Shown here in pieces: positions 28,496-30,599 of a stretch of DNA of 64,000 bases (its first letter is position 1; the number at the start of each line of letters is the position of its first letter). This DNA comes from Chloroflexota bacterium. GTDB lineage: Bacteria; Chloroflexota; UBA11872. A program made the translations under genes and the position numbers. The stretch is taken from positions 1 through 64,000 of the forward strand of contig JAPOWQ010000023.1 of NCBI GenBank assembly GCA_026707585.1, read 5' to 3'. The notes under the pieces are model-generated. The model saw only the letters and a program-made list of their open reading frames with translations. It searched no databases and was not told where the DNA came from.

Positions 28496-29542
28496 ATGCG
28501 TCGGCTACGAAACGTACTTAGCGCGCTGGCGGCAGCCGTGGCCGCGGCCATGGTGTTCGCAACCCCCGTCTTCGCCCAGTGGCCCACCACCTGCGTTGAC
28601 CTCAATGACATCGTGGAACAGCACCTGGGCCGCACCAACAACGTCGGCATCTACCAGCGCGTGTTTGGCGACCAGGCCGAGGCCGCCTGCCAGGGCGACC
28701 ACCGCGAGGACGTGCGCGGGGTGTTCGCCTGGGCGTTCGGACTCGCCACGCCCACAGCACCACCGGCCGTCGCGGGGTCGTCCCTGGCCCTGGCCAACGA
28801 CGCCCTGCACGGAGCCGTCTGGCGGGGCCAGACCGAGCGGGTGCGTACCCTCGTGGCCGGCGGACTCAACGCCAACACGCGAAGCTCGGATAACGATCCG
28901 CTCATCTACTCGGCGATCTGGCGCAACTACGTGGACATCGTGCGCATCCTGGCGGACGCCGGCGCCAACGTGAACGCCCTGGACTCCGATGGCGACCCGG
29001 TGCTGCGTTCGGCGATCTGGCGAGACTACGCCGGCGTCGTGCAGGTGCTGGTGGACGCCGGCGCCAACGTGGACGCCAGGGACTCCGATGGCGAGCCGCT
29101 GCTCCGCGAGGCGGTCTGGCGGGATCACACCAACGTCGCGCGCATCCTGGTTGACGCCGGCGCCGACGTGAATGCCAGGGACTCCGACGGCGATCCACTC
29201 CTCTTCGAGGCGGTCTGGCGCGGGCACACCGAGATCGTGCGCATCCTCGTCAACGCCGGCGCCGACGTGAATGCCCGCGACTCGGATGGCGACACCGCCC
29301 TGGGCGAAGCGCAGTGGCGCGGGCACGCCGAGATCGTGCAGATCCTGCTCGCGGCGCCCGCCGTTACGCCCGAGCTCGGCTGGCCCACCACCTGTGTCGA
29401 CCTCAACGACATCGTCGAAGACCACCTCGGCAACCTCAACAACGTCGGCATCTACCAGAAAGTCTTCGGCGACCAGGCCGAGGCCGGCTGCCAGAACGAC
29501 CACCGCGAGGACGTACGCGGCGTCTTCGCCTGGGCCTTCTGA
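28496..29542 (+). CDS. Secreted ankyrin-repeat protein with duplicated 53-residue terminal module
   Basis: A 348-residue protein with a signal peptide (residues 1-27, likely cut after VFA). Residues 29-81 and 296-348 are the same 53-residue module, identical at about 47 positions, each with two Cys (starting WPTTCVDLNDIVE, ending DVRGVFAWAF). Between them lie about six 33-residue ankyrin repeats with an unusual Trp (AVWRGH) and repeated DAGADVNARDSDGD. The last module ends exactly at the stop codon. Ankyrin domains bind proteins; the terminal module is not one I can name. GGAGGG precedes the ATG. Export plus paired cysteines suggests a folded extracellular or surface protein, perhaps for contact with other cells. 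Confidence 0.8.
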   Translation: MRRLRNVLSALAAAVAAAMVFATPVFAQWPTTCVDLNDIVEQHLGRTNNVGIYQRVFGDQAEAACQGDHREDVRGVFAWAFGLATPTAPPAVAGSSLALANDALHGAVWRGQTERVRTLVAGGLNANTRSSDNDPLIYSAIWRNYVDIVRILADAGANVNALDSDGDPVLRSAIWRDYAGVVQVLVDAGANVDARDSDGEPLLREAVWRDHTNVARILVDAGADVNARDSDGDPLLFEAVWRGHTEIVRILVNAGADVNARDSDGDTALGEAQWRGHAEIVQILLAAPAVTPELGWPTTCVDLNDIVEDHLGNLNNVGIYQKVFGDQAEAGCQNDHREDVRGVFAWAF

Positions 29543-29828: not shown

Positions 29829-30599
29829 ATGGATGCCCTGACCGCCCGCACACGCTTCGTCCTGGTCGCCGGCGTGGCCCTCGTGCTCGCCGTGCCCATC
29901 CTGCTGTTTTTCCTTGGACGGTTGGTCCTCAGCCACGACCCGCTCCTGCTCCACCACGTCGCCGAACACCGCACGCCCCTCGTCGAGCTCTCGCTCTGGG
30001 CCGGCGCCGACCCCAACTACCGCGACGCCGACGGCCGCTCGGCACTGCCGCTGGCCGTCGAGTCAGGCGACTACGATGTCGTGCCCTTGCTCCTGGATGC
30101 CGGTGCTGACCCCGACACCCGCACGGCCGACGGCGAGCCGGTCGCGGCCATAGCCGTCCGTGACGGCGAAACCGCCATCCTGGCGATGCTGCTGCGCGCC
30201 GGCGCCGACTCCAACGCCAGGGCCGAATCCGGCATCCCGATCCTCGTGCCCGCCGCGATTCAGGGCAATGCCGCGATCGTGCAAATGCTGCTGGACGCCG
30301 GTGCCGATCCCAACACTCTGGCGGAGGAAAACCTCTCGGTCCTGGCCATAGCCGTCGATCGCGGTCACACCGAAGTCGCGCGGCTGCTGCTGGACGCCGG
30401 CGCCGATCCCAACGGCCCCGGCATCGCGGAACTCGTCAGGCAGTCCGGCAACATTGACCTGCTCGAGCTGCTCGAAGCCGGCGCGCTAACCGCCGAGGCG
30501 CTGTTCACCCTCGCCGAACTCGGCCTGAACGCCCTCGCCAACCTCGACAAGATCATCGAAGGCATGCTCTGCATCTTCACCCTCGGCCTGGGCTGCTAG
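29829..30599 (+). CDS. Membrane-anchored ankyrin-repeat protein
   Basis: A 256-residue protein with one N-terminal membrane helix (FVLVAGVALVLAVPILLFFLG, about residues 9-29). About five ankyrin repeats with the canonical LLLDAGADPN pattern follow, then a hydrophobic C-terminal tail (LFTLAELGLNALANL...CIFTLGLGC). The repeats differ from those of the upstream ankyrin gene, so this is not a recent copy. The orientation of the repeats (inside or outside) is not clear. GGGGAG abuts the ATG with no spacer, an odd initiation site; no better in-frame start is visible. Confidence 0.75.
   Translation: MDALTARTRFVLVAGVALVLAVPILLFFLGRLVLSHDPLLLHHVAEHRTPLVELSLWAGADPNYRDADGRSALPLAVESGDYDVVPLLLDAGADPDTRTADGEPVAAIAVRDGETAILAMLLRAGADSNARAESGIPILVPAAIQGNAAIVQMLLDAGADPNTLAEENLSVLAIAVDRGHTEVARLLLDAGADPNGPGIAELVRQSGNIDLLELLEAGALTAEALFTLAELGLNALANLDKIIEGMLCIFTLGLGC

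Follow-up and report, generated by a model that had tools for sequence, protein, structure and literature searches.

The window, a 64,000-nucleotide stretch of a Chloroflexota genome, encodes on its forward strand a putatively exported ankyrin-repeat protein which carries the same 53-residue module at both ends. The locus is organised as follows:

28496-29542, + strand: open reading frame of 348 aa with the module at both ends
28496-28579, + strand: signal peptide, residues 1-28 (MRRLRNVLSALAAAVAAAMVFATPVFA, followed by Q), called from sequence; lipobox Cys absent
28580-28738, + strand: module copy 1, residues 29-81 (W1 P2 C5 ... C37 ... W51), from alignment; AlphaFold hairpin, pLDDT 94
28739-29380, + strand: linker and six ankyrin repeats (Pfam Ank, 6 stretches, E 1.1e-29)
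29381-29539, + strand: module copy 2, residues 296-348, ending at the last residue of the protein, from alignment; retained across relatives

The Pfam profile PF00023 matched six stretches with 101 bits, above the curated cut-off, in agreement with the six repeats that a preliminary description of this DNA had placed between the end copies. The Dot/Icm ankyrin effector names of NCBIfam were rejected, as generic ankyrin scores stay far below the cut-offs, and PADLOC ankyrin matches were accounted for by the repeats. The two modules, judged by eye to share about 47 of 53 residues, share exactly 47 when computed, together with 138 of 162 nucleotides. Copy 1 begins one residue past a signal-peptidase-I-like site (PVFA↓Q), and the stop codon directly follows copy 2. 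As described before, both contain exactly two cysteines and end in DVRGVFAWAF. Seventeen of the 53 codons differ, 11 synonymously and 6 non-synonymously, and dN/dS between the copies is about 0.22, which bears out the earlier impression that the differences are largely synonymous and the protein sequence is selected. The next gene on the same strand (29829-30599) codes for an ankyrin protein that has a transmembrane-like segment at its N-terminus and lacks the module; it appears to be a membrane-anchored counterpart.

Conservation of the two-ended ankyrin gene

In seven species-level genomes the ankyrin gene has the module at both ends, and in these copy 2 lies at the C-terminus or at most four residues from it. 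The second copy, which might have been an assembly artefact, is therefore genuine. In a tree of the copies, a branch with a support of 0.957 separates the N-terminal from the C-terminal modules. Because the copies split in this way across species, the two-end arrangement is older than these species and the copies have not been homogenised; gene conversion between them was rejected on the same grounds. Between genomes G000 and G012, the signal peptide shows a dN/dS of 0.30 and the ankyrin block one of 0.20, against 0.00 in copy 1 and 0.05 in copy 2; the end copies are under strong purifying selection. The ankyrin array differs in repeat number and content between species. A remnant of the locus was observed in G004 (L052:877-1665): it lacks a signal peptide and retains half of one ankyrin repeat, followed by the C-terminal module. 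The acetyltransferase-like gene preceding this remnant has an in-frame TAG, and the same gene precedes the intact locus.

A module family in exported proteins

Searching the organism's own genome (3.92 Mb, 75 contigs) with one copy as query, we obtained 33 matches at E < 1e-16, so that the similarity of the two end copies is far beyond chance. The 33 copies are spread over 19 exported proteins, of which 14 have two each and five have a single one, and a local two-copy duplication was rejected as the whole story because of this number. Within the same genus, 12 of 13 genomes carry the module with 10-33 copies each (own genome counted); G003, a genome of 2.1 Mb and 76% completeness, has none, which possibly reflects a different lifestyle. 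In the sister genus two of six genomes were positive, with 1 and 4 copies; a third genus of the same order had 9 and 12 copies in its two genomes. No copy was found in the other genera of the class, of which 41 genomes were searched in total, nor in 20 further Chloroflexota genomes outside it. When 84,980 species genomes were scanned with a pattern, 114 places were confirmed; the 76 loci listed among these are all from Chloroflexota MAGs, bar one contig labelled Rhodothermales (L144). Its module protein (L144:1062-3062) is 95% identical to a Chloroflexota protein, which makes misbinning a more likely explanation than horizontal transfer. Mobile spread was rejected as well, since viral contigs, phage records and plasmid records gave no module match. 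Nearly all copies found belong to one small class of sponge-derived Chloroflexota. Many of the module-bearing MAGs are sponge-derived, and from the name prefixes RHO and COS we infer Rhopaloeides and Coscinoderma as hosts, two sponges that appear in PMC8163846.

Across 108 module-bearing ORFs, W1 is immediately preceded by a hydrophobic stretch plus an AXA-like site in 91, mostly as A↓Q-W, and in none does the signal peptide end in a lipobox ([LVI][ASTVI][GAS]C), both calls being pattern matches and not those of a trained predictor. Two copies are present in 75 of these ORFs, with linkers of mostly 15 residues, and one copy in the remaining 33. The ankyrin orthologues have 181-217 residues between the copies, and in the cytochrome c family the pair is C-terminal after a proline-threonine linker, behind the protein's own signal or membrane segment. 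The picture of an ankyrin protein bracketed by two modules thus holds, but it describes a variant of a wider multi-copy system whose normal form is two copies in tandem behind the signal peptide. Fusion to other exported domains, suggested before as a point to look for, is extensive: the cargo comprises the unrelated domains Ank, RCC1, LRR, PD40, SNase with Excalibur, fn3, cytochrome c, BNR-like, Trypsin_2, GmrSD_C, Glug, SBP_bac_5 and Cache, and several parts without a name. One run of five consecutive module-pair genes on one strand (L031:2472-15923, contig C63 of G000), four RCC1-like and one with PD40 and LRR, is a local expansion.

In the tandem pairs of other proteins, the nearest neighbour of a copy occupies the same position in 22 of 28 cases, and position 38 is Q in first and R in second copies; by sequence, first and second copies form distinct subtypes. 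Both copies of the ankyrin protein are of the first type, their nearest relatives being each other or first copies elsewhere. The protein therefore probably originated when a first-type module was copied to the opposite end.

An alignment of 53 copies revealed the invariant residues W1, P2, C5, D10, G17, Y25, Q26, A33, E34, C37, H41, W51 and A52, and exactly two cysteines are present in all 182 full-length copies. The module is compact and acidic, with a mean net charge of -4.5. AlphaFold2 predicts a two-helix hairpin (helices 5-15 and 24-48, mean pLDDT 94), and a disulfide between C5 and C37 is expected across it because both are roughly equally far from the turn. For the tandem pair, two hairpins are predicted to pack in a defined arrangement (pLDDT 90.6, pTM 0.81). 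Foldseek found no solved relative of the single hairpin in the PDB, and the predicted pair matched neither a PDB entry nor a viral fold. Isolated copies had no Pfam or NCBIfam match at E ≤ 10, with the exception of one of 53 members, which matched the Arc-like ribbon-helix-helix profile (PF03869) at E 0.13; dockerins likewise gave no match among these curated profiles. We therefore rejected the idea of a known domain, as had been anticipated from inspection: the module is a previously unnamed helical domain family missed by current libraries. A literature search retrieved no description of it, and the passages on sponge-symbiont ankyrin proteins in PMC8163846 and PMC6306507 contain none either.

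The resemblance to Arc repressor is a lead of its own. Module residues 1-30 (28580-28669 in the window) align with the two helices of Arc at 13 of 30 identical positions, with the motif WP...L...V...G...N..IYQRV, and a PDB profile search returned Arc repressor entries only (E 0.004-0.006 for single chains). Both are helical hairpins over this stretch. In contrast to Arc, the module is exported, has two invariant cysteines and stands outside any DNA-binding context; its models lack the N-terminal beta-strand, W1 usually lying directly after the signal peptide, and Foldseek misses Arc. Homology appears improbable; the resemblance is a local helix-turn-helix one and probably convergent or due to chance.

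Anchors in orthologous cargo proteins

The N-termini of related proteins with and without the module differ in a telling way. Two SBP_bac_5 proteins (L185, L186) carry the module, while five orthologues from two genera, 63-68% identical, are without it and all have a lipobox (LVAC or LAAC). Module-free SNase homologues have a lipobox in about 11 of 14 cases (the pattern scores 12 of 14, L174 among these looking like a plain membrane segment). The nearest module-free Trypsin_2 homologue (68% identical) has an N-terminal transmembrane-like segment; N-termini are mixed in BNR-like and in the many more distant Trypsin_2 homologues without module. The replacement pattern is clear in only two cargo families, SBP_bac_5 and SNase.

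A solute-binding protein has to remain near its membrane transporter. Since the module stands in place of the lipid anchor of this protein, it most likely does the anchoring. The preliminary description had proposed a secreted interaction or surface-attachment module; export is supported by the signal peptide, and with the anchor replacement, attachment appears as the best-supported of these roles. The SLH profile (PF00395) was found in none of 41 class genomes, with positive controls in four, and Mur ligases are present in the class. The class thus probably offers an envelope polymer, and it lacks a widespread non-covalent anchor of known type.

A further repeated domain (RWGFPTSE...QYYQRGVV) was observed in L236, L233 and L265 where relatives would have the module. 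In the sister genus it occurs together with trypsin-like cargo, in G002 with cytochrome c; it has no Pfam match and is perhaps another interchangeable envelope domain; a reading as LGFP repeats had no Pfam support and was rejected.

A proposed role in envelope retention

On this basis, the module may well be a non-covalent envelope-retention unit that substitutes for lipid or membrane anchors and shows its cargo at the surface. After Sec export, cleavage at AXA↓Q would leave the module at the head of the mature chain, as the sequence pattern indicates, and the tandem pair is predicted to pack into one unit. Such a pair would keep otherwise soluble cargo non-covalently on a component of the cell envelope and so do the job of the lipid anchor or transmembrane helix of relatives. 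Evidence to the contrary comes from the mixed N-termini of module-free BNR-like and many Trypsin_2 homologues and from the cytochrome c family, whose C-terminal modules follow a separate signal or membrane segment. It would resemble SLH, LysM and CWB2 modules, which are likewise short repeated units on unrelated exported proteins, often in tandem and near the signal peptide or C-terminal; unlike these, it is a predicted two-helix disulfide hairpin without a Pfam match and with a putative binding function. A lipobox anchor occupies the same position in orthologous SBP_bac_5 and SNase cargo of relatives, but here a folded 53-residue module follows a signal-peptidase-I-type cleavage without a lipidated cysteine.

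The predominance of tandem pairs with short linkers, their predicted packing and the position-dependent subtypes (Q38 or R38) would also suit hairpins that bind one another, first with second type or across proteins, and assemble a shared extracellular complex in which the ends of the ankyrin protein clasp each other or neighbours, a logic comparable to cohesin and dockerin. We consider this unlikely: 33 of the 108 proteins have a single copy, a partner receptor was not found, and the pTM of 0.81 is for a linked pair and says nothing of intermolecular binding. Less probable still is a lectin- or adhesin-like module that attaches secreted proteins to the matrix or the cells of the sponge. The near-restriction of the copies found to Chloroflexota MAGs, many sponge-derived, and the eukaryotic-like repeats among the cargo fit such host binding, but much of the cargo works for the bacterium's own benefit (solute-binding protein, cytochrome c, trypsin-like protease), a solute-binding protein needs proximity to its transporter, and orthologues have bacterial anchors in place of the module. 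A disulfide-bonded cap that aids secretion or protects the chain without any binding role would explain the compact, acidic fold with two conserved cysteines directly after the signal-peptide site, but is very unlikely, as internal and C-terminal copies occur in the ankyrin and cytochrome c families and the invariant W1, P2, D10, Y25, Q26, H41 and W51 exceed what a mere cap is expected to need.

Returning to envelope retention, the copy at each end of the ankyrin protein would pin the repeat array so that it is exposed at the surface, which suggests that the protein is kept on the cell and not released. According to PMC8163846 and PMC6306507, sponge symbionts are enriched in ankyrin-repeat proteins, and such proteins changed phagocytosis on expression in E. 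coli. The protein described here resembles these eukaryotic-like proteins as an exported ankyrin protein of a lineage with sponge-derived MAGs and differs in having the lineage's module at both ends. Its array would then sit where sponge-symbiont ankyrin proteins are thought to meet host cells. As a long shot, the module could be a new general-purpose tag for surface display that arose and multiplied in one sponge-associated bacterial lineage and whose mutually packing hairpins join dozens of different exported proteins, eukaryotic-like repeats included, in one host-facing surface network. The question addressed is how symbionts without an obvious host-cell route hold and present ankyrin, LRR and similar proteins, and a recognisable common tag would make it possible to list the proteins that uncultured sponge symbionts display at their surface.
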